Source: Microbacterium sp. SZ1
GTDB taxonomy: Bacteria > Actinomycetota > Actinomycetes > Actinomycetales > Microbacteriaceae
Length of the DNA stretch: 64,000 nucleotides
Assembly (NCBI RefSeq): GCF_002362255.1
Contig: NZ_LPVV01000004.1
Coordinates: forward strand, 186,001 to 250,000
Direction: 5' to 3'
The notes under the pieces were generated by a model, which saw only the letters and a program-made list of their open reading frames with translations, had not been told where the DNA came from and did no database searches. The translations under genes and the position numbers were made by a program. Numbering within the stretch: position 1 is the stretch's first letter; each line of letters begins with the position of its first letter. Below, piece by piece: positions 12,687 to 27,362 of the stretch.

Positions 12687-13708
12687 TCAGTGTCCGGGTC
12701 GGAGCACGTCGCGCTCGGCGGGGTGATGGCACGCGACGCGGTGCGTGCCGCCGTGGTCGGCGAGCTCGGGCACGACCTCGGCGCAGATCTCGCTGGCCTT
12801 CCAGCAGCGGGTGCGGAACCGGCATCCGCTCGGCGGTGCCACCGGGCTCGGCACGTCTCCCGTGAGCACGATGCGCTCGCGGGCCCGCTCGGCCCGGGGG
12901 TCGGGAACGGGGATCGCCGACAGCAGCGCCTGCGTGTACGGGTGCAGCGGACGCTCGTAGAGCTCGTCGACCGGGGCCTCCTCGACGAGCTTGCCGAGGT
13001 ACATGACTCCCACGCGATCGCTGAGATGGCGCACGACCGACAGGTCGTGGGCGATGAACAGGTAGGTGAGGCCCAGGTCGCGCTGCAGGTCGTCGAGCAG
13101 GTTGAGCACGCCGGCCTGCACGCTGACATCGAGCGCGCTGACCGGCTCGTCGAGCACGATCACCTCCGGCTCGACGGCGAGCGCCCTGGCGATGCCGATG
13201 CGCTGCCGCTGGCCGCCGGAGAACTCGTGCGGGAAGCGGTCGGCGTGGGCGGGGTTCAGCCCGACCTGCGCGAGAAGCTCCTCGACGCGGCGATCACGGT
13301 CGCCGCGGTGCAGCCCGTGGATGATGAGCGGCTCGGCGAGCGTCGCCCGCACCGACTTTCGCGGGTTGAGCGAGGCGTACGGATCCTGGAACACGAACTG
13401 CACCCGCCGTCGCAGCAGGCGCAGACTCTCCCCCGACACGGCGGTGATGTCGTCGTCGCCGAGCCGGATGGAACCGGCGTCGCTGGGCTGCAGGCGGGCG
13501 ACGCTGCGTCCGAGCGACGACTTGCCGCACCCCGACTCGCCCACGAGCCCGAAGGTCTGTCCGCCCTCGATCGACAGGCTCACATCCGACACCGCCTGCA
13601 CGACGTCGCGGCCCCGGCCGAACAGGCCGCCGCCGACGCGGTACTCCTTGACGAGTCCGTCGACCGTGAGACCGGTGCTGCCGGTACGTTCCCCCACCTG
13701 CGATGCGC

Positions 13709-13712
<4 letters not shown>
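12687..13712 (-). CDS. Oligopeptide-type ABC transporter ATPase (DppF/OppF-like)
   Basis: A 341-residue ATPase with the C-terminal extension typical of peptide importers. Walker A is GESGCGKSS, the Q-loop is FVFQDP, the signature is [15 protein letters not shown], Walker B is [12 protein letters not shown], and the switch His is in IAHDLS. A cysteine cluster near the C-terminus (GCRFRTRC...C...C) matches the Fe-S-like motif of Opp/Dpp ATPases. Its ATG overlaps the stop of the upstream ATPase gene (ATGA). It works with the partner ATPase to power import. Confidence 0.93.
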
Positions 13713-14730
<1,018 letters not shown>

Positions 14731-14734
<4 letters not shown>

Positions 14735-15633
14735 AGGTTCTTCCCCTGCGGGTCGAGGGCGTCGCGGAGACCGTCTCCGATGAAATTGACGCAGAGCACG
14801 GTGACGAGGATGAACAGGCCGGGGAAGTACAGCAGGTACACCTGCGGGGTGCCGACGTACCCGGCGGCCTGGCTGAGCATCGATCCCCAGCTCGTCTGCG
14901 GCGGCTGCACGCCGAACCCGAGGAAGCTGAGGGTCGACTCGGCGATGATCGACGACGCGACGGCGAGGCTCATCGCGACCGCGATCACTCCGGCGAGGTT
15001 CGGCAGCAGGTGCGACACGACGATGCGGAACCCGGATGCTCCGATGCCGCGCGCCGCGTCGATGAAGTCCTTCTCGCGCAGCGACAGCACCTGCGCCCGC
15101 ACGACCCGGGCGATGTAGGTCCAGCCCAGCGCGGTGAGTGCGAAGACGATCGTCGTGGGCGACGAGCCGAGCCCCTGCAGGATGACGGCGAGCAGCGCGA
15201 TCGCCGGCACGATGAGGAACAGGTCGGTGATGCGCATGATGAGCTCGCCGATCCACCCGCCGAGGTAGCCGGCGATCGCGCCCAGCGCTGTGCCGACAAC
15301 CGTGGCGAGGAGGGCGACGGCGAGACCGATCGCGAGGGAGATCTGCCCGGCGAACAGGATCTCGCTGAGGTAGTCGCGGCCCAGTTCGTCTGTGCCGAGC
15401 CAGTGCGCGCCCGAGGGCGGGGTCGGGCCGGTCAGCAGGTCCTGCTGTCCCTGCGGGTACGGCGCGATCCACGACGCGCCGAAGCAGACCACGAGCAGGA
15501 TGACCAGGACGACGAGACTCACGACCCCGAGCCGATGCCGCAGGAAACCCTTCAGCAGCTGCCGGGTCGGCGCCTTCTGCGGATCCTGCTCGGCCAGCAG
15601 CTCCTCCCGGCCGGCGATGCCTGCACCGCTCAT
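14731..15633 (-). CDS. Oligopeptide-type ABC permease (DppC/OppC-like)
   Basis: A 300-residue inner-membrane permease. The N-terminal region (LLKGFLRHRLGVVSL, then TM1) and the WLGTDELGRDYLSEI motif are typical of the DppC branch. The coupling-helix region reads REKDFIDAARGIGASGFRI (EAA loop). Six membrane spans are expected. It pairs with the DppB-like permease encoded just upstream and overlaps it by 4 nt. Confidence 0.92.
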
Positions 15634-16595
15634 GACAGCCTCACTCTCGGGTCGAGCACCGCGTAGGCGGTGTCGGCGATCAGGTTGCAGACGACGACCG
15701 CGACGGCGACCACGATCATCCACGGCAGGAGCACGTAGACGTCGCCCGCGACGAGCGACTGCAGGAACAGTCGACCCATGCCGGGGATCGCGAAGATCTG
15801 CTCGGTCACGACGAGTCCGCCGATGAGGATCGCCGCATCGAGTGCCACGACCGTCACGAAGGGGGCGAGGGAGTTGCGCACCGCGTGCCGCCAGATGACC
15901 TGGCGGCGGGGCACGCCCTTCGCCCGCGCGGTGCGGACGTAGTCGCTGGACAGCGCGTCGAGCATGGCCGCGCGCCCGAACCTGCTCCACGACGCGACGA
16001 GCGCGATCATCAGCGCGGCCACCGGGAGGACGAGGTGACGGAGGTAGTCGAGCGGATCGCTCTGCCCCGGCGAGTTCAGCCCGATGAAGAACAGCGGCGG
16101 CTCGCTGAGACCGAACTGCTCCTTGGGCCACACCGCGAAGGTCTGGATGAGGATGAGGCCGAACCAGAACGCGGGCATGGCGATGCCGATGTACGAGGCG
16201 CCCGTCAGCAGGTTGTCGCCCAGCGAGTACTGCCGGACGGCCGAGTACACGCTCACCGCGCCGGCGATGAGCACGGCGATCACGAGTCCCCAGAACGCGA
16301 GCTGCAGCGTCGGCCACAGCGCTTCACCGATGAGCGGCAGCACCGGGGTGCCGGTGCGGGTGCTGAGCCCCCAGTCGCCGACGACCATCGATCGCAGCCA
16401 CAGGAAGTACTGCTCGGGGATGCTGCGGTCGAGGCCGAGGCGCTCGATCTCACGGGCGATCACCGCCGGGTCGTGCGCCAGGCGGAGCTTCGCCAGCGGG
16501 TCGAACGTCGAGCGCACGGCCCAGAAGAGGATGAACGAGGCGACGACGATCACCGGGATCGAGTAGAGAACCCGTCGGGTAATGAATGTGAGCAC
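15630..16595 (-). CDS. Oligopeptide-type ABC permease (DppB/OppB-like)
   Basis: A 321-residue permease: ITRRVLYSIPVIVVASFILF as TM1, a periplasmic domain with the LGLDRSIPEQY segment, and the EAA loop SDYVRTARAKGVPRRQVIWR. DppB/OppB proteins usually read LGLDxPxxxQY here. It forms the channel with the DppC-like subunit. Spacing to the binding-protein gene is 40 nt. Confidence 0.92.
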   Translation of the reverse strand: MLTFITRRVLYSIPVIVVASFILFWAVRSTFDPLAKLRLAHDPAVIAREIERLGLDRSIPEQYFLWLRSMVVGDWGLSTRTGTPVLPLIGEALWPTLQLAFWGLVIAVLIAGAVSVYSAVRQYSLGDNLLTGASYIGIAMPAFWFGLILIQTFAVWPKEQFGLSEPPLFFIGLNSPGQSDPLDYLRHLVLPVAALMIALVASWSRFGRAAMLDALSSDYVRTARAKGVPRRQVIWRHAVRNSLAPFVTVVALDAAILIGGLVVTEQIFAIPGMGRLFLQSLVAGDVYVLLPWMIVVAVAVVVCNLIADTAYAVLDPRVRLS

Positions 16596-16635: not shown

Positions 16636-18336
16636 TCAGCCGGCCAGGCCCCATTCGGCGAGGTTCCAGAACGGACCCTCGATCGGGTTGATCTGCAGCG
16701 GACCGCCGACCTTCTCGCTCCACAGGAGCACGTTCGGCACGACGTCGAGCGGCAGCGAGGGCACGTTCTCGGCGATCAGAGCGTCGGCTTCCTGCGAGGC
16801 CGCGATCCGCGCATCCTGGTCCACCTCGGTGTCGACCTGCGCGAGCAGGTCATCGAGGCCGTCGATGTTCGCGCGGTAGAAGTTGATGCCCGAGAAGCCG
16901 TTCGCGTCGCTGGGGATGTTTACCGACGAGAAGGTCGACGACAGCGTGGGGTCGGGGAACGTGTCGACCAGCGCCCAGATGCCGGCCTGGAAGTCGCCCT
17001 CGGGCGCGATCGTGCCGAACAGGTCGGCGGGGGTGACCTGGTCGATGGTCATCTCGAATCCGGCATCCGCCAGCTGCGACTGCAGCACCTGCACCGTGAG
17101 GTCGCGGCGCTTGTTGCCGGCGAGCGTCTTGATCGAGAACGTCGCGGTCTCGCCGCCCTTGGCCCAGACGCCGTCGCCGTTCTTCGACCAGCCGTCGCCC
17201 TGCATGAGCTCGTCGACCTTGTCGAGGTCGAGCGAGTACTGCGAGAAGTCGTCGGCAGCGAACGGCGCGACCATCGGGGAGTTGAAGCTCTGCTGCGCCT
17301 CGTCGATCCCGAGGCTGCCGAACAGTCGCTCGACGATCGCGTCGCGATCGATCGAGTACGCGAGAGCCTGACGCACGGCGACCGAGTCGAAGGGCGCGAC
17401 GGCGTTGTTCAGCCAGATCGCCTCGAGGTTGCCGCTGCGCGCATCGACCTGCGAGCGGATGCCGGGCAGCCCCGCCTCGATCTGGTTCAGCGCGTCGAGC
17501 TGCGGCGTCGGAGCGAGGACGCTGACCTGGCCGCTCTTGAGCGCCTGGAACGCCGCGGTCGTGTCGGGCAGGAACAGGAACGTGACCTTGTCGAGGTGCG
17601 GCTTCTCACCCCAGTAGTTATCGTTCGGGACGAGCGTGACCGAGGTGCCGCGCGTCCACTTCTCGATCTTCCACGGGCCGCCGCTGAAGTCGTAGCCGTC
17701 GGCCATGATCGCCGCGCGGTCCTGCCCCTCGAGCAGGTGGGAGGGCATCACGCCGTAGACGCTGAACAGAGTGCGCCACCCGGCGTAGGCGGAGTTCAGA
17801 GTCACCACCGCGGTCGCCGGGTCGGACGAGTCGACCGCGGTGATGCGGTCGTAGCCCGTCTTGTCGAAGATGTCGTCGCCGTCGCGGATCTGCAGCGCGG
17901 TATAGGCGAAGTCGGCGGAAGTGATCGGCTCTCCGTCCGACCACACGGCGTCGGGATTGATCGAGTAGGTGATGGTCTGGGTGCCGTCGTCGGCGACCAC
18001 GACCTCGGGCTCGCCCGTGACGAGGTCGGACGGGGTGGGCTGCCACTCGTCGTCGACGAGCCGGGTCTGGAACACGCTCGGCATCGTCGGGATCTGCATC
18101 ACGTACGTGCCCCAGATCGAGCCCCCGCAGGTCGCGATCCAGTCGGCGCAGTCGGGCTCCTGCTCGGCGCCGATGACGATCTCTCCCCCGTCGACGACGG
18201 CGACGTCGCTGGGCTCCGGCGTCGACGACGACGAGGTGCAGGCGGCCAGCGAGCCGACGAGGGCGGCGGCGGTCAGGGCCGCGATGACAGCGCGGCGTGA
18301 AGCGGGTACAGCGGTGCGGAGGCGTGATTGCGACAT
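16636..18336 (-). CDS. Peptide-type solute-binding lipoprotein (SBP_bac_5)
   Basis: A 566-residue extracellular binding lipoprotein. The signal peptide (residues 1-32) ends with lipobox SLAAC, so Cys33 is the lipidated residue; a Ser/Pro linker follows. The mature part matches SBP_bac_5 with VWSDGEPITSADFAYT and the ALAYSIDRDAI segment. These proteins bind peptides, nickel, opines or other amphoteric compounds. It is the first gene of the six-gene importer operon; a TetR-type operator lies about 106 bp upstream. Confidence 0.92.
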   Translation of the reverse strand: MSQSRLRTAVPASRRAVIAALTAAALVGSLAACTSSSSTPEPSDVAVVDGGEIVIGAEQEPDCADWIATCGGSIWGTYVMQIPTMPSVFQTRLVDDEWQPTPSDLVTGEPEVVVADDGTQTITYSINPDAVWSDGEPITSADFAYTALQIRDGDDIFDKTGYDRITAVDSSDPATAVVTLNSAYAGWRTLFSVYGVMPSHLLEGQDRAAIMADGYDFSGGPWKIEKWTRGTSVTLVPNDNYWGEKPHLDKVTFLFLPDTTAAFQALKSGQVSVLAPTPQLDALNQIEAGLPGIRSQVDARSGNLEAIWLNNAVAPFDSVAVRQALAYSIDRDAIVERLFGSLGIDEAQQSFNSPMVAPFAADDFSQYSLDLDKVDELMQGDGWSKNGDGVWAKGGETATFSIKTLAGNKRRDLTVQVLQSQLADAGFEMTIDQVTPADLFGTIAPEGDFQAGIWALVDTFPDPTLSSTFSSVNIPSDANGFSGINFYRANIDGLDDLLAQVDTEVDQDARIAASQEADALIAENVPSLPLDVVPNVLLWSEKVGGPLQINPIEGPFWNLAEWGLAG

Positions 18337-18441
18337 TGCCGGATCTCCAGTGATCGATACGAATCGGGCGGGTACGACCGTGCTGTGGTGCGGGTAGGTG
18401 GTCTGACTCTAGAACCGTCGACCCGAGATAGCAAGTGTTTT

Positions 18442-18460
18442 AGTCAATGTTCGTGACTAT
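18442..18460. promoter_or_regulatory. TetR-type operator, site A (importer operon)
   Basis: AGTCAATGTTCGTGACTAT, with outer inverted arms AGTCA and TGACT. It shares GTCAAT and TGACTAT, at identical spacing, with the sites at 20594-20612 and 23586-23604. On the minus strand it overlaps a -10-like GATAGT reading toward the binding-protein gene. Confidence 0.65.
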
Positions 18461-18537
18461 CGGACGGGCAGGCACCCTGTTCGAGGGTGGCGAGGGGCCC
18501 GAGAGGCGCCTCGGATCAGGCGTTCGGCGCGGCTACG

Positions 18538-18636
18538 TCAGGGCGCCGCCCCCTTGAGGAGCAACCCGGCGAGGAAGGCGACGGCGATGAGTCCCAGCGT
18601 CAGAAGGACGCATCCGATCACGATCGTGCGCGACAC
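18538..18636 (-). CDS. Possible 32-residue membrane peptide after the S9 peptidase gene
   Basis: An open frame with GTG start reading VSRTIVIGCVLLTLGLIAVA then FLAGLLLKGAAP, one clear hydrophobic span. It lies in the same frame as the S9 peptidase; the stretch between that gene's stop and this GTG has no usable start codon and reads as a Pro/Ala-rich linker. It could be a small membrane protein, the relic of a C-terminal membrane anchor, or chance. A terminator hairpin (18660-18684) lies upstream, which argues against strong expression from the peptidase promoter. Confidence 0.3.
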   Translation of the reverse strand: MSRTIVIGCVLLTLGLIAVAFLAGLLLKGAAP

Positions 18637-18659
18637 GAAGAAACCGGTGCCGTGGCCTT

Positions 18660-18684
18660 GCGTCGGGGGCTCATCCCCCGACGC
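18660..18684 (-). terminator. Stem-loop after the S9 peptidase gene
   Basis: GCGTCGGGGG and CCCCCGACGC form a perfect 10-bp stem with a 5-base loop, starting 37 nt after the peptidase stop codon. Confidence 0.65.
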
Positions 18685-18720
18685 TATCGCGGCGGGTGCC
18701 GCGGGGCGCGCCGCGTCGGG

Positions 18721-20553
18721 TCAGCCGTCCCAGCGCTCTCCGGCAAGGGTGCGGCGGGCGAACTCGTGCATCCGACGCTGGTCGACCGCCGCGGCATCCA
18801 GCCCGGTGGGCTCATGCCCACCCTCGAAGACGTCCAGTACGACGTCGCCGCCACGCGCGCTCAGCTCGTCGACGTAGCGCTGCACGCCGACGATCGGAGT
18901 GCGGGTATCGACGTCGCCCTGGTTGATCCACACGGAGGCCGTCACGTCGTCGAGATAGGTGATGGCCGAGAAGGGTTCGACCATCTCCGGCGGGACCCAC
19001 GAGCTCCACACACTGCGCACCGCGGGGTTCATCGCGTCGATCGCCGCCGACCACTCGGCTACCGCGACGTGGGCGAGTCCGCCGGCGAACAGGTCGGGCA
19101 GCCGTCCGACGCTGAGCAGGGTCATGTGCCCGCCGTAGGACGCACCCGTGATGAACGTCGTCGCGGGGTCGGCGAGGCCCTGCTCGCGGAGGAAGCCGAT
19201 CGCGGCCGCGACGTCTTCGATCTCCCGATCTCCGCCGACGCCCCAGAAGCCCTCTCGAAAGGCGCGGCCGAATGTCACCGACCCGCGATAGTTGAGCGCG
19301 GCGACGGCGAAGCCGGCATCCAGCCACGCCTGCGCCGAGGGATCGTAGCCGTCGACCGTCACGAGGTTCGGCCCGCCATGGATGGTCAGCACCGTGCCGA
19401 GCGGCTCAGCCCGCGACGGCCGCCCCCACCAGAGCTGTACGCGGGTGCCGTCGGCGCTCGGCACCATGGCCGAAGCGAGCGGATGCCCCGGCGGCACCGG
19501 TGCGGGCTCGATCAGGGTGACCGCGGTGCCGTCGGCGGCGATCTGCTCGACGTGCAAAGGCACGTCCCAGGTCGAGCGCACGGCACGCACGGCGCCGGTC
19601 GGTGCGAAGTACGACGCCCATTGGAACGGATGCAGGTCGGCCACGTCGGGGTCGAAGACGCTGCCGCCCTCTGCCACCACACGCACGTCGCCGGTGGCCT
19701 CGGCGATCTCGAGCAGACGGTGGATGCCGTCGTCGACGTGAACCGCGAGGATCCGGCCGGTCGGCGAGTGCCAGTCGACCGGGACCACCTCACCGGCGAG
19801 ATCGGGCAGGTCGAAGTCGACGCGCTCCCCCGTGCGAACGCTCCAGATCGCGGGGCGCGAGAACCCGCTGCGCTCGGTGTTCAGCAGGAGACGGTCGTCA
19901 CCGGCATCCGACGCGAAGCGCACTCCGCGCACGGGCCCGGCGGGGAGGTCGTCGAGAGTCGCGACGACCTCGCCGGTACGACCGTCGACGACCGTGAGCA
20001 GCGGACGGCGGATGCCGGGATTGTGCGCCGTCGTGTCGACCGAGACGAGCGCGCCGTCAGGGGAGATCTGCCCGTACCAGGCCTCCACGGGGTTCGAGTA
20101 GACGACCCGGGGATCGCCCCACGGAGCTGCGGGGATCACGAGCACGTGGAAGCCGTCCTCGTCGACCACGGTCGAGACGACCGAGCGGCCGTCGAACGAG
20201 GACTCGAGACCGCGCAGGACGTACGGGGCGCGGCCGGGCGTCAGCGAGACGCGTTCGGAGCCGTCGACCGCGAAAGCGACGAGACCGCCGACCTCCGATC
20301 CGCCGTCGTCGTCGAGGTCGACCACCCAGCGGGCATCCGCCGTGAGGATCGCTCCGACCCCGACCGGGAACGGCAGGAGATCACTCGGCGCAGCGGGCGC
20401 ACGCCAGATGCGACCGCGCGCGCCGTCGGGGTGGTTCTCGACGAGGAGGGCGAGGTCGTCCGGGCCGGGCACGGGGCGCACCGTCAGCAGGTACGGCACC
20501 GCGAAGCGCGCATCGAGCGCCTCGTCGGACGGGACTGCGGGGACCTCGAGCAT
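18721..20553 (-). CDS. S9-family serine peptidase (prolyl oligopeptidase/acylaminoacyl peptidase type)
   Basis: A 610-residue protein: an N-terminal beta-propeller-like part (residues about 20-375) and a C-terminal alpha/beta-hydrolase domain. Catalytic Ser472 lies in GASYGGH, Asp549 in GDVDTRTP and His580 in EGGHEPT, with the oxyanion-region HGGP at 392-395. S9 enzymes cleave short peptides or N-acyl residues, in the cytoplasm here since no signal peptide is seen. The ATG at 20553 follows AAGGAG. The operator at 20594-20612 overlaps its likely -10 (TATAGT), so the TetR encoded next door probably represses it. Confidence 0.9.
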   Translation of the reverse strand: MLEVPAVPSDEALDARFAVPYLLTVRPVPGPDDLALLVENHPDGARGRIWRAPAAPSDLLPFPVGVGAILTADARWVVDLDDDGGSEVGGLVAFAVDGSERVSLTPGRAPYVLRGLESSFDGRSVVSTVVDEDGFHVLVIPAAPWGDPRVVYSNPVEAWYGQISPDGALVSVDTTAHNPGIRRPLLTVVDGRTGEVVATLDDLPAGPVRGVRFASDAGDDRLLLNTERSGFSRPAIWSVRTGERVDFDLPDLAGEVVPVDWHSPTGRILAVHVDDGIHRLLEIAEATGDVRVVAEGGSVFDPDVADLHPFQWASYFAPTGAVRAVRSTWDVPLHVEQIAADGTAVTLIEPAPVPPGHPLASAMVPSADGTRVQLWWGRPSRAEPLGTVLTIHGGPNLVTVDGYDPSAQAWLDAGFAVAALNYRGSVTFGRAFREGFWGVGGDREIEDVAAAIGFLREQGLADPATTFITGASYGGHMTLLSVGRLPDLFAGGLAHVAVAEWSAAIDAMNPAVRSVWSSWVPPEMVEPFSAITYLDDVTASVWINQGDVDTRTPIVGVQRYVDELSARGGDVVLDVFEGGHEPTGLDAAAVDQRRMHEFARRTLAGERWDG

Positions 20554-20593
20554 CCTTGCTCCTTCATGTCGCACCCATGCTCGCGCACGCGTT

Positions 20594-20612
20594 GGTCAAT
20601 AACGTTGACTAT
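20594..20612. promoter_or_regulatory. TetR-type operator, site B (S9 peptidase / tetR intergenic region)
   Basis: GGTCAATAACGTTGACTAT, with a near-perfect dyad GGTCAA-N5-TTGACT. On the minus strand TATAGT inside it is a good -10 for the peptidase gene. Next to it, AACAGT-GGCT-ACTGTT (20613-20628) is another perfect dyad of unknown meaning. Confidence 0.7.
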
Positions 20613-20740
20613 AACAGTGGCTACTGTTCCGAGGCTAGACTTCGGGCATTGTCGACGGCACTGACAGCTCGGCTGACAGGCGTGAGGTACCGTGAATCTG
20701 CGCGAGCCGACACGGCCGCGATCTGCGAACGGAGTACTCG

Positions 20741-21472
20741 ATGGCGACACGGAAGGCCGCGGATCCGGCGAAGAAGCCGGCAGCGACATCCGGTGCGAAG
20801 GCGACCAAGGCAACCGGTCGCCCGCGCCGAGCCCGCGACTCGCTCAGCCGCGAGATCATCGTCGCCGCCGCCGACCGCGTGGTCGAGCGCGAAGGCCTCG
20901 ACCGCCTGACGTTCCAATCGATCGGCGAAGAGCTCGGCGCACACCCCACGTCGATCTACCGGCACTTCCGCGATAAGGACGAACTGCTGCTCGCGCTCAT
21001 CGACACGCTGCGCGCCCGCTCGTACAGCGGCGGCATGGTCGCGACCGACGACTGGCTCGCCGACCTGCGCGCCCAGGCGCACCTCATCCACGACCACTAC
21101 ATGCGCTATCCCGAGTTCGCCCTGCAGATGGCGCTGCGCCGGCCGACGGACTTCTCGTCGATGGAGTTCTCGATCGGCGCGCTGCGCCGCGGCGGGTACG
21201 ACAGGGAGCAGGCCGCCCTGTATGCCAGGGCGCTCGGGCAGCTGATCCGCTCGGCGTCGAGCATCCAGGCGGCGCTCACCGCGATTCCGGCCGAGGTGCA
21301 GGATGCCGATGAGCTGACGTGGCAGATGGACCGCCGCCGCCTCGACGCCGACGAGTATCCGGAGATCACGTGGGCGGGCGACGCGCTGCCCGGCATCCGC
21401 GACCCCCGGGCCTGGGAGACGGCGCTCGACCTGATGCTGGAGAGCATCGCACGACACGCCCCCGGCGCCTGA
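20741..21472 (+). CDS. TetR-family regulator, candidate controller of the peptide/dehalogenase regulon
   Basis: A 243-residue TetR protein with a long basic, Ala-rich N-terminal extension (residues 1-32), then an HTH at about 55-78 (TFQSIGEELGAHPTSIYRHF) and a C-terminal helical ligand domain. It is divergent from the S9 peptidase gene, and the shared intergenic region carries operator site B; the same operator lies before the importer operon and before the hydrolase/M20 operon. By position it is the natural binder of these sites. The inducer is probably the imported compound or a breakdown product. ATG at 20741 has GGAG upstream. Confidence 0.9.
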   Translation: MATRKAADPAKKPAATSGAKATKATGRPRRARDSLSREIIVAAADRVVEREGLDRLTFQSIGEELGAHPTSIYRHFRDKDELLLALIDTLRARSYSGGMVATDDWLADLRAQAHLIHDHYMRYPEFALQMALRRPTDFSSMEFSIGALRRGGYDREQAALYARALGQLIRSASSIQAALTAIPAEVQDADELTWQMDRRRLDADEYPEITWAGDALPGIRDPRAWETALDLMLESIARHAPGA

Positions 21473-21493
21473 CGCGGGCAAGGCGTCTTGTGC

Positions 21494-21577
21494 GCGCATA
21501 ACGAAGGAGATCTCGCGCTACGAAGGAGCATCTACGCGGATTCGTCCTGCGATACGTGAGATCTCCTTCTTTGTGCG
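21494..21577. repeat. Palindromic repeat family 4 (AAGGAGATCTC), copy 1
   Basis: Imperfect arms of about 24 bases: GCGCATAACGAAGGAGATCT at the left and its near-complement ending GTGCGC at the right, with another CGAAGGAGCAT unit in the loop. It sits between the convergent tetR and M20 peptidase genes. A second copy lies at 34143-34211. Confidence 0.75.
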
Positions 21578-21588
21578 CGTGGCGCGAG

Positions 21589-22689
21589 TCAGCCCGCGCC
21601 CGATTCAGAGGCGGCGTCGAGGTCGTCGATCATGCCGGCGAGCAGATCGATCCGCTCGTGCAGCGACGCGATGGACACCCACTCGTGGTCGGCGTGGGCG
21701 CCGGAGCCGCGCGGCCCGAGGCCGTCCAGGGTCCTCGCGCCGACCGCGGCGGTGAAGTTGCCGTCCGACGCCCCTCCCGCCGACACCGCCTCGACCTCGG
21801 CGTGCCCGAGCCGCTCGGCGACGCGGCGCGCACACGCGAGCAGCTCCTCCGACACGCTCTGCTCCATGGGCGGCCGGTTGATGCCGCCGTGCACGTCGAC
21901 CCGCACATCGGGCGTATGGGCGCCGAGCGACTGCATCCGTCCGTCGACCCGTTCGAGCTCGTCGAGTGTCCAGGCGCGGACGTCGACGCGCAGCTCGGCG
22001 TGTTCGGGGATGACGTTGGTGACCGTGCCGGCCTCCGCGACGGTCGGGCTCACCGTCGTGCCTCGGTCATCGTCGGCGAGCAGCGGCAGCGCCAGCACGT
22101 GGTGGGCGAGCTCGGCGAGGGCGCTGCGTCCCTTCGCCGGTTCGAGTCCGGCGTGCGCGGCGCGTCCGGTGAAGGCGAGGCGGTAGATGCTGCCACCGCG
22201 CCGAGCGATCTTGAGCGCGCCGTCGAGGCTGGGTTCGAGCACGAGTACCGTGCCCACGCGGGCAGCCTCGCGCTCGATCAGCGCACGGGATGTGATCGAG
22301 CCGACCTCCTCGTCGCTCGTGAGAAGGATCGCGACGCGTTCGGGGCGCGCCACCTTCTCGAGGGCGGCGGCGATGATCACGATGCCCGCCTTCATGTCGA
22401 AGACACCGGGGCCGGTGGCGCGATCGCCGTCGACCCGGAATGGGCGCTCGGCGATCGTGCCCGCTGGGAAGACCGTGTCGACGTGGCCGATCAGCAGCAC
22501 CGTCGGATCGTCCCCACCCGACCATCGCAGATGCGCGACGCCCTCGACCGTCTCGAGGTCGCCATCGCCCACGATGGGACTGATCCACGAGCGAATGAGC
22601 TGCTGCGCAGCGGCCAGGCCCGCGGAATCCCCCGTCGGCGTCTCGATCGTCACCAGCTCAGCGAGCCGGTCGACCTCGCGCGCGGTCAT
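21589..22689 (-). CDS. M20-family metallopeptidase (carboxypeptidase G2-like)
   Basis: A 366-residue M20 zinc peptidase. Metal and catalytic residues: His69 and Asp71 in GHVDTVF, Asp98 in GPGVFDMKAG, and the Glu pair at 127-128 in SDEEVGS. The dimerisation insert follows, with FTGRAAHAGLEPAKGRSA, and a late His in GAHADHEW. This pattern fits the carboxypeptidase G2 branch, which removes C-terminal residues or deacylates N-acyl amino acids. It overlaps the hydrolase gene by 4 nt and is in the same operon, under operator C. There is no signal peptide, so it acts on material already imported. Confidence 0.9.
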   Translation of the reverse strand: MTAREVDRLAELVTIETPTGDSAGLAAAQQLIRSWISPIVGDGDLETVEGVAHLRWSGGDDPTVLLIGHVDTVFPAGTIAERPFRVDGDRATGPGVFDMKAGIVIIAAALEKVARPERVAILLTSDEEVGSITSRALIEREAARVGTVLVLEPSLDGALKIARRGGSIYRLAFTGRAAHAGLEPAKGRSALAELAHHVLALPLLADDDRGTTVSPTVAEAGTVTNVIPEHAELRVDVRAWTLDELERVDGRMQSLGAHTPDVRVDVHGGINRPPMEQSVSEELLACARRVAERLGHAEVEAVSAGGASDGNFTAAVGARTLDGLGPRGSGAHADHEWVSIASLHERIDLLAGMIDDLDAASESGAG

Positions 22690-23561
22690 GCGCCCACCTC
22701 CGCGAGAAAGGTGCGGAGTGCGGATGCCGTGGGCGCCGGCGACTCCTCAGCGAGGTAGTGGTCGGCGTCGATCGACCGGCCCGTGATGCCTGGAGCGTAC
22801 GGCTCCCAGGTCGACAGCACGTCGAAGTTGCGGCCGACGTAGCTGTGCGCTCCCCAGAGGGCGAGGGTCGGCGCGGTGACGACTCGCCCCGCCGACCGGT
22901 CGGCGCGGTCGTGGTCGAGATCGACGGATGCCGCGGCGCGATAGTCGGCGCCGGAGGCGTGCACGGTATCGAGGTCGAAGCAGCGCCGATACTCGTCGAA
23001 CGCATCGGGCAGGGCATCGCCGTCGTGCCGGCGTCCGGCGAATCGGCTGCGCAGCCAGGTCTCCGGATCGGCCCCGATCAGGGCCTCAGGGAGCCCGTCT
23101 GCGCGCGCGAGGAAGAACCAGTGGAAGTACGCGGTCGCCATCTCGCGGTCGACGTTCTCAAACATGTGCAGCGTCGGCACGATGTCGAGCACGGCGAGCG
23201 CCGTCACGGCCTCCGGGTGATCGAGCGCCAGGCGGTGCCCGACGCGGCCGCCCCGGTCGTGGCCGATCACTGCGAAGCTCGCGTGTCCGAGCTGCCGCAT
23301 GAGCGCGACCTGGTCGCGCGCCATGTCGCGCTTCGCATACGGGGCATCTCGCGGCTTGGCGGAGTCTCCGTATCCACGCAGGTCGGCGGCGACGATCGTG
23401 TGGTCCACGGCGAGCGCGCCGGCGACGGCATCCCACATCGCCTTGGTCTCGGGGTAGCCGTGCAGCAGCAGCACGGCCGGCCCGGAGCCGCGGACCTCAG
23501 CCGCGATCCGGATGCCGTCGCACTCCGCCGTGATCGACACGGGAGCGGGAGGTGTGGTCAT
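22686..23561 (-). CDS. Haloacetate/fluoroacetate dehalogenase-like alpha/beta hydrolase
   Basis: A 291-residue alpha/beta hydrolase with Asp nucleophile: GHDRGGRVGHRLALDHPE puts Asp102 at the nucleophile elbow. By spacing it matches fluoroacetate dehalogenase residue for residue: Arg103 and Arg106 (carboxylate clamp, +1 and +4), Asp126 (+24, acid of the triad, in VLDIVPT), His147-Trp148 (+45/46, halide pocket, in YFHWFF), Tyr207 (in ADYRA) and His268 (in DADHYL). The oxyanion region is HGYPETKAMW. Such enzymes displace halide from short 2-haloacids; epoxide hydrolases share the Asp but not the whole set. It leads the two-gene operon with the M20 peptidase. Start ATG 23561 chosen; the upstream TTG lies in the operator. 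Confidence 0.85.
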   Translation of the reverse strand: MTTPPAPVSITAECDGIRIAAEVRGSGPAVLLLHGYPETKAMWDAVAGALAVDHTIVAADLRGYGDSAKPRDAPYAKRDMARDQVALMRQLGHASFAVIGHDRGGRVGHRLALDHPEAVTALAVLDIVPTLHMFENVDREMATAYFHWFFLARADGLPEALIGADPETWLRSRFAGRRHDGDALPDAFDEYRRCFDLDTVHASGADYRAAASVDLDHDRADRSAGRVVTAPTLALWGAHSYVGRNFDVLSTWEPYAPGITGRSIDADHYLAEESPAPTASALRTFLAEVGA

Positions 23562-23585
23562 CGTCGTCCAACCGTCGGAACAGCA

Positions 23586-23604
23586 AGTCAATAGCGTTGA
23601 CTAT
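23586..23604. promoter_or_regulatory. TetR-type operator, site C (dehalogenase/M20 operon)
   Basis: AGTCAATAGCGTTGACTAT, a dyad AGTCAA-N5-TTGACT. On the minus strand it overlaps TATAGT, a good -10 for the hydrolase gene starting 25 nt further on. A trailing CATTGAC at 23608-23614 looks like an extra half site. Confidence 0.7.
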
Positions 23605-26312: not shown

Positions 26313-27290
26313 TCAGCCGGCGTGGGCGGGGGCAGGAGTGACGAGCGGGACGGACTCGTCGGCGAGGAAGCGGATGACGTTGTCCGCCGCGTGCACGGGC
26401 AGGTCGTCGAGCGCCTCCGGCGAGAACCACGCGGCGTGCGGGGTGAGCAGGACATCGTCGAGATCGCGCAGCGGGGAGTCCGCCGCGAGCGGTTCGCCGT
26501 CGAAGACATCCAGCGCCGCACCGCCGAGGTGCCCGGATAGGAGGGAGGAGGCAAGCGCCCCCTCGTCGACCAGCGGCCCGCGACACGTGTTCACCACGAC
26601 CGCTCCCCGCTTCATCGTCGCCAGGGCGTCGGCGTCGATCAGATGCCGAGTCTCATCGGTGAGCGGCACGTGCAGGGTGAGGATGTCGGCGGCGGCGATC
26701 GCCTCGCCGATCGCGACCGGCTCGCAGCCGGCCGCCCGCACGGAGTCGGCGGCGGCGAACGGATCGGCGACGAGAACACGGAACCCGAGCGCACGGCATC
26801 CGCTCGCGACGACGCGTCCGATGCGCCCGAAACCGAGCACCGAAACCGTGGTGCGCGAGGGGCGCACGGCGAGAGGACGCGCGTCGACGGCCTTCCACGT
26901 GCCGGCGCGCACCGCGCGGTCGTACGCGAGGAGGCCGCGCGCCTGAGCCATGATCATGGCGACGGTGTGCGCGGCGACCTCTTCGATGCAGTAGCTCGGG
27001 GTGTTCGCGACGGCGATCCCGCGCTCGGCGGCGGCATCCACGTCGATCATGTCGTAGCCGATGCCGACGCGGCTGATGATGCGGAGGTTCGGCAGACGAT
27101 CGAGGACGTCGGCGGTGATCGGCATCCACTGCACGACCAGTCCTTCGGCGTCGGCGGCGCCGGCGGCGAGGAGGTCGTCGATCGTGGCGGACGCGGCACG
27201 CTCGGGGCGTAGACCGGCGGCGCGGAGGGTGTCTTCGATGACGGACCCCGGCAGGTCGCAGTCGGTCACGATGATGAGGGGCTCGGTCAT
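26313..27290 (-). CDS. D-isomer-specific 2-hydroxyacid dehydrogenase
   Basis: A 325-residue NAD(P)-dependent dehydrogenase. The Rossmann motif is VLGFGRIGR, with Asp in VADPF suggesting NAD preference. Catalytic residues appear in NTCRGPLVDEGAL (Arg), FDGEPL (Glu) and LLTPHAAW (His). It interconverts 2-keto and D-2-hydroxy acids. Its ATG is 6-9 nt from the -10-like part of the operator at 27297-27310, so its mRNA is probably leaderless and directly repressible. The C-terminal end precedes the FAH gene. Confidence 0.92.
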   Translation of the reverse strand: MTEPLIIVTDCDLPGSVIEDTLRAAGLRPERAASATIDDLLAAGAADAEGLVVQWMPITADVLDRLPNLRIISRVGIGYDMIDVDAAAERGIAVANTPSYCIEEVAAHTVAMIMAQARGLLAYDRAVRAGTWKAVDARPLAVRPSRTTVSVLGFGRIGRVVASGCRALGFRVLVADPFAAADSVRAAGCEPVAIGEAIAAADILTLHVPLTDETRHLIDADALATMKRGAVVVNTCRGPLVDEGALASSLLSGHLGGAALDVFDGEPLAADSPLRDLDDVLLTPHAAWFSPEALDDLPVHAADNVIRFLADESVPLVTPAPAHAG

Positions 27291-27310: not shown

Positions 27311-27348
27311 TAGCAAATGCACCGCCAGGTCGTTTCGGGTGATCGCGC

Positions 27349-27362
27349 ATTTGCTATAGCGT
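27349..27362. promoter_or_regulatory. GntR-type operator, site 2 (SDR promoter)
   Basis: ATTTGCTATAGCGT, matching the core TGCTATAGC of site 1. TATAGC (27355-27360) ends 8 nt before the ATG at 27369, as expected of a leaderless promoter under repressor control. Confidence 0.55.

Follow-up and report, generated by a model that had tools for sequence, protein, structure and literature searches.

Uptake-and-catabolism units controlled by a TetR-family regulator are a known kind of system, and described TetR local repressors combine a short inverted repeat, a site adjoining their own gene and a small local regulon. A locus with these properties was analyzed in a 64,000-nucleotide stretch of the soil bacterium Microbacterium sp. 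SZ1 (RefSeq assembly GCF_002362255.1, contig NZ_LPVV01000004.1, positions 186,001 to 250,000 of the forward strand), referred to below as the window. Around a tetR gene it carries a peptide-type ATP-binding cassette (ABC) importer, serine peptidase S9, metallopeptidase M20, an alpha/beta-hydrolase (ABH) of the fluoroacetate-dehalogenase type and a tartrate dehydrogenase/decarboxylase (TDH). We propose, with a probability of about one half, that these genes form a TetR regulon for an N-acyl peptide with a reactive C4 diacid cap, which would be opened to tartrate and then converted to D-glycerate.

The Ttu system of Agrobacterium vitis is LysR-controlled and comes with a tartrate transporter; in contrast, the regulator here is a TetR, the importer is of the peptide type, and two peptidases and a dehalogenase-type hydrolase precede TDH, which itself is like the tartrate dehydrogenase/decarboxylase of Pseudomonas putida. 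ABH is like the fluoroacetate dehalogenases RPA1163, FA1, Daro3835 and D4B in fold and in all eight catalytic and pocket residues, and differs from them in that the ABHs of related gene cassettes share W169, R173, R177 and D267. Carboxypeptidase G2 and acylamino-acid-releasing enzyme are the best solved relatives of M20 and S9, respectively, a relation of sequence only. If ABH made tartrate from epoxysuccinate it would act like the cis-epoxysuccinate hydrolases, but according to PMC6429283 the known enzymes of that kind are related to L-2-haloacid dehalogenase or are TIM-barrel proteins, and belong to other families. Unlike at a typical TetR local repressor, one of the three sites lies upstream of a -35 element. 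Full-text literature searches returned no match of the operator sequence and target set to a described TetR, open-access literature listings contained no such regulon, gene set or operator, and no report of a dedicated catabolic route for the epoxysuccinyl inhibitor class was found in the literature searched.

Operator sites and predicted TetR control

The first-pass annotation of the window, made from sequence alone, had proposed that one TetR acts through one operator on three transcription units, marked by an 18-base frame at fixed spacing. This is strongly supported by comparative genomics. The frame, GTCAATN{5,6}TGACTAT, was found at 18443-18460, 20595-20612 and 23587-23604, each with N5, and in none of 100 shuffles; the 3,452,203-base assembly held the same three matches and no others (reversed-pattern control, 0). 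The tetR gene adjoins the middle site, as annotated, with operator 2 lying 131 bp upstream of its start codon. The operator core is the inverted repeat GTCA-N7-TGAC, usually widened to (T/A)AGTCA...TGACTA, and its symmetric form TAGTCAANNNNNTTGACTA occurs with at most one mismatch at just these three sites genome-wide. One single two-mismatch match was present, in a stretch (L007) that we take to be the initiation factor 3 gene, and at up to three mismatches 19 matches were counted against 29 in the reversed control. Because these weaker matches are at chance level, the own-genome regulon would be limited, as far as this motif tells, to the three sites; further members in this genome were rejected, and the genome motif search that the annotation had suggested for finding them brought up none.

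The regulator has an N-terminal helix-turn-helix domain (TetR_N, PF00440; 44.5 bits, cut-off 24). At E <= 1e-30 it was found in 25/366 genomes of the genus, its own included (24 at a minimum of 76% identity, one at 38%), and its profile reached E <= 1e-40 in 10/296 genomes of the class, four of which, again counting its own, were at E < 1e-100. Relative loci were taken from a scan of genome contigs (best 80 of 181), and a cassette was defined as at least six of ten genes (tetR, Opp importer, S9, M20, ABH, TDH). By this definition 45 of the 53 loci L023-L075 carry a cassette, 15 in Microbacterium and 30 elsewhere, in several gene orders and in hosts that include Agromyces, Leucobacter, Nocardioides, Streptomyces, Amycolatopsis, Embleya, Acrocarpospora and Sciscionella. 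The remainder are L031 (incomplete contig) and L068-L071 and L073-L075 (no cassette). Outside the 45, a cassette is also carried by L195 (G895), which is probably the same record as L067, and by L196 (G667).

An operator matrix was trained on 40 sites from L023-L040 and the window and applied to the 28 loci outside training (L041-L067 and L072; 542 kb). It returned 44 sites scoring 15 bits or more, and 44/44 lay in the zone from -60 to +400 bp around the match start of a cassette gene or of a glycerate kinase linked to the cassette; this zone covers 21% of the sequence. Five mononucleotide shuffles gave 0, 0, 0, 2 and 0 sites and the reversed sequence gave 3. Within 300 bp upstream of tetR, a site of at least 20 bits was present in 18/28 loci and one of at least 15 bits in 19/28; by the latter measure, nine loci have no palindromic operator near the regulator's own promoter. 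Permuted matrices reached a mean of 0.06 of 28 loci, and among 1513 further 330-base blocks from these loci, a control that still includes the cassette's other operators, 13 reached 20 bits and 22 reached 15. In two Sciscionella loci the site is between M20 and the solute-binding protein gene, with none within 300 bp upstream of tetR. Across all 45 cassette loci, 97/97 sites fell in the same zones, a count that includes the training loci and thus is not independent.

Against the proposed regulon, seven Streptomyces-group loci (L047, L049, L051, L056, L057, L061 and L063) have no tetR-upstream site, L047, L057 and L061 have no site at all (3/45 cassette loci), and none accompanies the cassette-free, 49%-identical TetR of L068. 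The Streptomyces group and L068 would fit a regulator other than the TetR encoded at 20741 reading the three sites, a view that we regard as highly improbable. Against it, TetRs of this clade have sites nearby even where the cassette is missing: cassette-free TetRs of 42% identity still carry one (27.6 bits in L069, 35.3 bits in L070), and weaker ones lie near the cassette-free L071, L073, L074 and L075. In view of these loci, the operator tends to accompany the TetR rather than just the cassette. Also against it, among the 26 loci L077-L102 just L087 (27.6 bits), L095 (24.3 bits) and L096 (14.9 bits) have a site of at least 10 bits. On balance, a three-site regulon under predicted binding by this TetR is strongly supported.

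Several further features of these loci were recorded. The seven Streptomyces cassettes share TAGCAA...TAGGCTAGTAACTATG upstream of tetR, perhaps an altered operator. In L049, L051, L057 and L061, also Streptomyces, a LysR gene stands beside ABH, with TDH on its other side in L051 and L061, which is possibly a separately controlled ABH-TDH module. The TetRs of L077-L102 are more distant (31-36% identity, L087 apart) and mostly lack the GTCA-N7-TGAC operator; an Amidohydro_3-type gene lies on the opposite strand, about 0.07-4.2 kb from the TetR gene, in 24/26 of them (not L087 or L096).

Promoter geometry

Promoters were compared in 18 relative loci (L023-L040). A TATAGTC[AT] box overlapping the operator core was found upstream of S9 in 17/18 and upstream of ABH in 17/18, and an extended -10 element, TGnTATAGTC, in 17/18 and 14/18, respectively. 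Upstream of the binding-protein gene, the promoter TTGCT[AT]-N15-19-T[AC]nAGT was present in 18/18, and its -35 element started exactly 8 bp past the operator core in every case; by count, the center of operator 1 in the window is at about -51 relative to this promoter. The annotation had every site overlapping a -10-like box, an overlap that the relatives keep at sites 2 and 3 only. Its placement of site 1 was corrected, because the importer -35 element begins 8 bp past the operator core in all 18 loci, and site 1 lies upstream of it. The regulon interpretation was otherwise supported in its TetR, operator, units and peptide-like compound, and the wide spread of the cassette lay beyond what the window alone could show.

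At sites 2 and 3, bound TetR would block the S9 and ABH-M20 promoters by covering their extended -10 elements and start sites. The constancy of the 8-bp spacing points to a fixed arrangement with RNA polymerase at the importer promoter, and TetR would act differently there, by hindering RNA polymerase from upstream, by looping among the three sites or by positive control. Site 1 is away from the usual repressor position, which counts against the proposal.

Enzymes and the proposed pathway

From the observed gene families, operator footprint and co-occurrence, we predict the following binding, ligand, reactions and order. TetR would bind the palindrome (T)AGTCA-N7-TGACT(A) and be released by the imported ligand or its product. 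The Opp system would import an N-acylated peptide or acyl amino acid, S9 and M20 would cleave its amide bonds to release the acyl cap, the Asp nucleophile of ABH would open a reactive epoxide or C-X bond adjacent to a carboxylate, and TDH would oxidatively decarboxylate the resulting C4 hydroxy-diacid. This diacid is proposed to be tartrate, with D-glycerate as the exit product, because glycerate kinase is a recurrent partner.

Import and breakdown of a peptide-like compound, as annotated, is supported by the gene content and is sharpened by the enzyme types: an acylaminoacyl-peptidase-like S9, a carboxypeptidase-G2-like M20, an Asp-nucleophile ABH and a tartrate-type TDH. The best solved relatives of M20 are carboxypeptidase G2 entries (6xj5, 143 bits; 1cg2, 142 bits), and the best Protein Data Bank (PDB) relatives of S9 are acylamino-acid-releasing enzymes (92 bits over residues 363-580, the catalytic domain). 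An Opp-type importer with two peptidase families would also suit general scavenging, in which ordinary peptides are imported and degraded and ABH and TDH are passengers. We consider this unlikely: ABH (37/45) and TDH (33/45) stay with the cassette over large phylogenetic distance; among the 44 sites in untrained loci, three have ABH, one ABH with glycerate kinase and five TDH directly behind them; and the TetR is patchy in the genus (25/366), unlike housekeeping peptide uptake.

TDH scored 547.5 bits against TIGR02089 (cut-off 470.4), which places it in this family, and 515 bits against the tartrate dehydrogenase/decarboxylase 3flk, which we take to be from P. putida. Assignment as the isopropylmalate dehydrogenase of the leucine pathway was rejected (best such match 251.7 bits; leuB profile 236.4 bits, cut-off 353.2). 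Tartrate dehydrogenase converts meso-tartrate to D-glycerate, for which glycerate kinase is the next step. A PF02595 glycerate kinase adjoins the cassette in 6/30 non-Microbacterium loci (L039, L043, L044, L060, L062 and L064; the profile was confirmed for five, and L043 was assigned by similarity). It follows TDH by about 20 bp in L039 and S9 by about 40 bp in L043 and L044, stands behind an operator in L060, has one operator in common with ABH in L062 and lies 1.1 kb from TDH in L064; in five of these loci the gene either abuts a cassette operon or has an operator in front of it. A candidate glycerate kinase near L052 was dropped, as the contig retrieved has no cassette. The linkage favors tartrate over D-malate as the predicted TDH substrate, and it is mainly because of this recurrence that tartrate is placed in the pathway; D-malate would give pyruvate. 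In L060 (14649-17366), an Amidohydro_3 gene and the glycerate kinase diverge from one operator copy next to the cassette.

ABH falls nearest to a group of 22 sequences (280 to 209 bits), mostly named fluoroacetate dehalogenase and in some cases Alr0039, putative acyltransferase or probable epoxide hydrolase; the next match was soluble epoxide hydrolase at 101 bits. Its AlphaFold model (mean predicted local distance difference test score 94) matched 3qyj with Z 44.7 and 1y37 with Z 43.4, and Z ranged over 41.6-44.7 among the 50 matches listed. Residues D102, R103, R106, D126, H147, W148, Y207 and H268 of the window ABH are invariant in 39/39 cassette ABHs, so that the fold, the Asp-His-Asp triad, two carboxylate Arg and the His-Trp-Tyr halide pocket of fluoroacetate dehalogenases are all present.

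Esterases of the alpha/beta-hydrolase fold use Ser as a rule, and an Asp nucleophile in this fold serves to hydrolyze an epoxide or a carbon-halogen bond adjacent to a carboxylate. Because its nucleophile is Asp (39/39), ABH is unlike an esterase and fits the latter reactions, and its assignment as an ordinary Ser esterase was rejected. This bears on the idea that the imported compound already holds tartrate, as an ester or amide, and that ABH is the esterase that frees it; TDH and glycerate kinase do fit a tartrate intermediate, and with the Asp nucleophile against it we judge this idea quite unlikely.

Cassette ABHs are marked by W169, R173 and R177 (39/39 each) and D267 (38/39). R177 aligns with Trp179 of FA1 and, by offset, with Trp185 of RPA1163, where other members mostly have Trp, so that this active-site Trp is absent from all 39 cassette ABHs; R173 would align with Lys181 of RPA1163. 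Both Trp185 and Lys181 positions of RPA1163 are mutated in PDB entries whose titles name bulkier acids. According to PMC11465415, Trp185 is an active-site pocket residue, and according to PMC12955510 a smaller residue in place of the Trp admits bulkier acids, defluorination selections retained the Trp of a homologue, and Trp-to-Arg occurs in the family alignment. The pocket placement of R173 and R177 is predicted by alignment, and R177 gives only a hint of a second carboxylate. Its use as proof is weakened by the family alignment and by 9c9f (Delftia acidovorans D4B), which is named fluoroacetate dehalogenase and also has Arg at this position; because of 9c9f, the Trp is not a strict mark of the family, and Arg177 does not exclude dehalogenation.

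We tentatively suggest that actinobacteria use the regulon to feed on epoxysuccinyl peptides, either fungal E-64-type cysteine-protease inhibitors or dapdiamide-type antibiotics, by way of trans-epoxysuccinate, meso-tartrate and D-glycerate. E-64 carries (2S,3S)-trans-epoxysuccinate, and anti opening of trans-epoxysuccinate yields meso-tartrate. S9 and M20 would remove the peptide part to release trans-epoxysuccinate, ABH would open the epoxide to meso-tartrate with Arg173 and Arg177 serving the second carboxylate, TDH would form D-glycerate, and glycerate kinase would lead into glycolysis. The text of a paper on E-64 gene clusters does not contain 'degrad', 'epoxide hydrolase' or 'tartr' (PMC12568646).

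The main rival to the epoxysuccinyl proposal is a halogenated acyl cap, in which ABH dehalogenates a 2-halo-succinyl-type acid to D-malate and TDH, as a D-malate dehydrogenase, produces pyruvate. It draws on the complete fluoroacetate-dehalogenase residue set of the 39 ABHs, halide pocket included, on the names of many of the nearest solved relatives and on the Arg that 9c9f shares at the R177 position. Glycerate kinase, which is recurrent and twice behind an operator, would be superfluous for a route to pyruvate. The eight residues are no proof of dehalogenation, because they are also kept in 28/28 non-cassette homologues and some close solved relatives (4b9a-4bb0 of P. aeruginosa) are called putative epoxide hydrolases. 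We regard the halogenated cap as doubtful.

Several observations tell against the proposed regulon and its route through tartrate. TIGR02089 also covers D-malate dehydrogenases, whose product is pyruvate. Linked glycerate kinase was found in 0/15 Microbacterium cassette loci, and the single glycerate kinase of the SZ1 genome is on another contig; the Embleya loci L043 and L044 are not independent, L064 is a loose case, and 33/33 genomes searched (L055 outside this set) have at least one glycerate kinase match anyway and none has more than a few, a number that in turn makes adjacency a small target. Where ABH or TDH is lacking from a cassette, the gap is a contig or stretch end in some loci and absence from the stretch in others. 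TDH was found near 0/28 non-cassette ABH homologues (up to 1.5 kb of flank), and a general ABH-TDH coupling outside the cassette was rejected on this count.

Layout of the locus and neighboring features

The gene calls of the first-pass annotation proved right for the six-gene importer/dehydrogenase operon, S9, tetR and ABH-M20 (Table 1). On the minus strand, the six-gene operon runs solute-binding protein-OppB-OppC-OppD-OppF-TDH, S9 is a single-gene unit and ABH-M20 is an operon of two genes. The tetR gene lies on the plus strand. The importer set, with a family 5 solute-binding protein, two BPD_transp_1 permeases and two oligo_HPY ATPases, is that of an Opp/Dpp system. Between tetR and M20, which converge, lies a very stable hairpin that is likely a bidirectional terminator.

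Table 1. Positions in the window of the genes, operators and other elements of the locus.
Feature	Position	Strand	Basis or remark
TDH, tartrate dehydrogenase/decarboxylase family TIGR02089	11591..12676	-	TIGR02089 profile and 3flk match
OppF/DppF-type ATPase	12687..13712	-	ABC_tran and oligo_HPY
OppD-type ATPase	13709..14734	-	ABC_tran and oligo_HPY
OppC-type permease	14731..15633	-	BPD_transp_1 and OppC_N
OppB-type permease	15630..16595	-	BPD_transp_1
Family 5 solute-binding protein, lipoprotein-like N-terminus (LAAC)	16636..18336	-	SBP_bac_5, 207.7 bits
Importer promoter, conserved	18406..18434	-	-35 TTGCTA 18434-18429, -10 TAGAGT 18411-18406
Operator 1, GTCA-N7-TGAC	18443..18457	.	Upstream of importer -35; matrix score 33.2
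S9 serine peptidase, acylamino-acid-releasing-enzyme-like	18721..20553	-	Peptidase_S9; GASYGG at residue 470
Operator 2	20595..20609	.	Overlaps S9 extended -10 TGTTATAGT; matrix score 32.7
TetR-family regulator	20741..21472	+	TetR_N; recurs with operator and cassette
Hairpin between convergent tetR and M20	21495..21580	.	-44.8 kcal/mol, z -6.51
M20 metallopeptidase, carboxypeptidase-G2-like	21589..22689	-	Peptidase_M20 and M20_dimer
ABH, alpha/beta-hydrolase, fluoroacetate-dehalogenase type, Asp102 nucleophile	22686..23561	-	
Operator 3	23587..23601	.	Overlaps ABH-M20 extended -10 TGATATAGT; matrix score 31.8

Near distant cassettes, 20 selected open reading frames were scanned and gave five glycerate kinases and two LysR regulators; other neighbors were Amidohydro_3 (L060), another amidohydrolase (L045), DAO (L053 and L061) and a beta-lactamase-fold protein (L041). 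As additional conserved members of the cassette, the scanned frames other than glycerate kinase were set aside, since they are not tied to the pathway. Elsewhere in the window, an inverted repeat TAGCAAATGC/GCATTTGCTA with CTATAGC nearby (27311-27356) resembles the operator of another regulator. It sits between a divergent dehydrogenase-type gene (26316-27290, minus strand) and SDR-type gene (27369, plus strand), gene types that were assigned by reading of the sequence.

Discussion

If the proposed pathway is true, four enzyme families would be joined in one route, and members of the fluoroacetate-dehalogenase family would have a physiological substrate. If the cap is epoxysuccinyl, ABH would be a new type of epoxysuccinate hydrolase within that family, giving part of the family a natural role, and the cassette would be a dedicated catabolic route for the E-64-type inhibitor class. 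E-64 gene clusters are reported to be conserved in hundreds of Ascomycetes (PMC12568646), and for this reason bacteria feeding on these inhibitors would form an ecological counterpart to the Ascomycete clusters.

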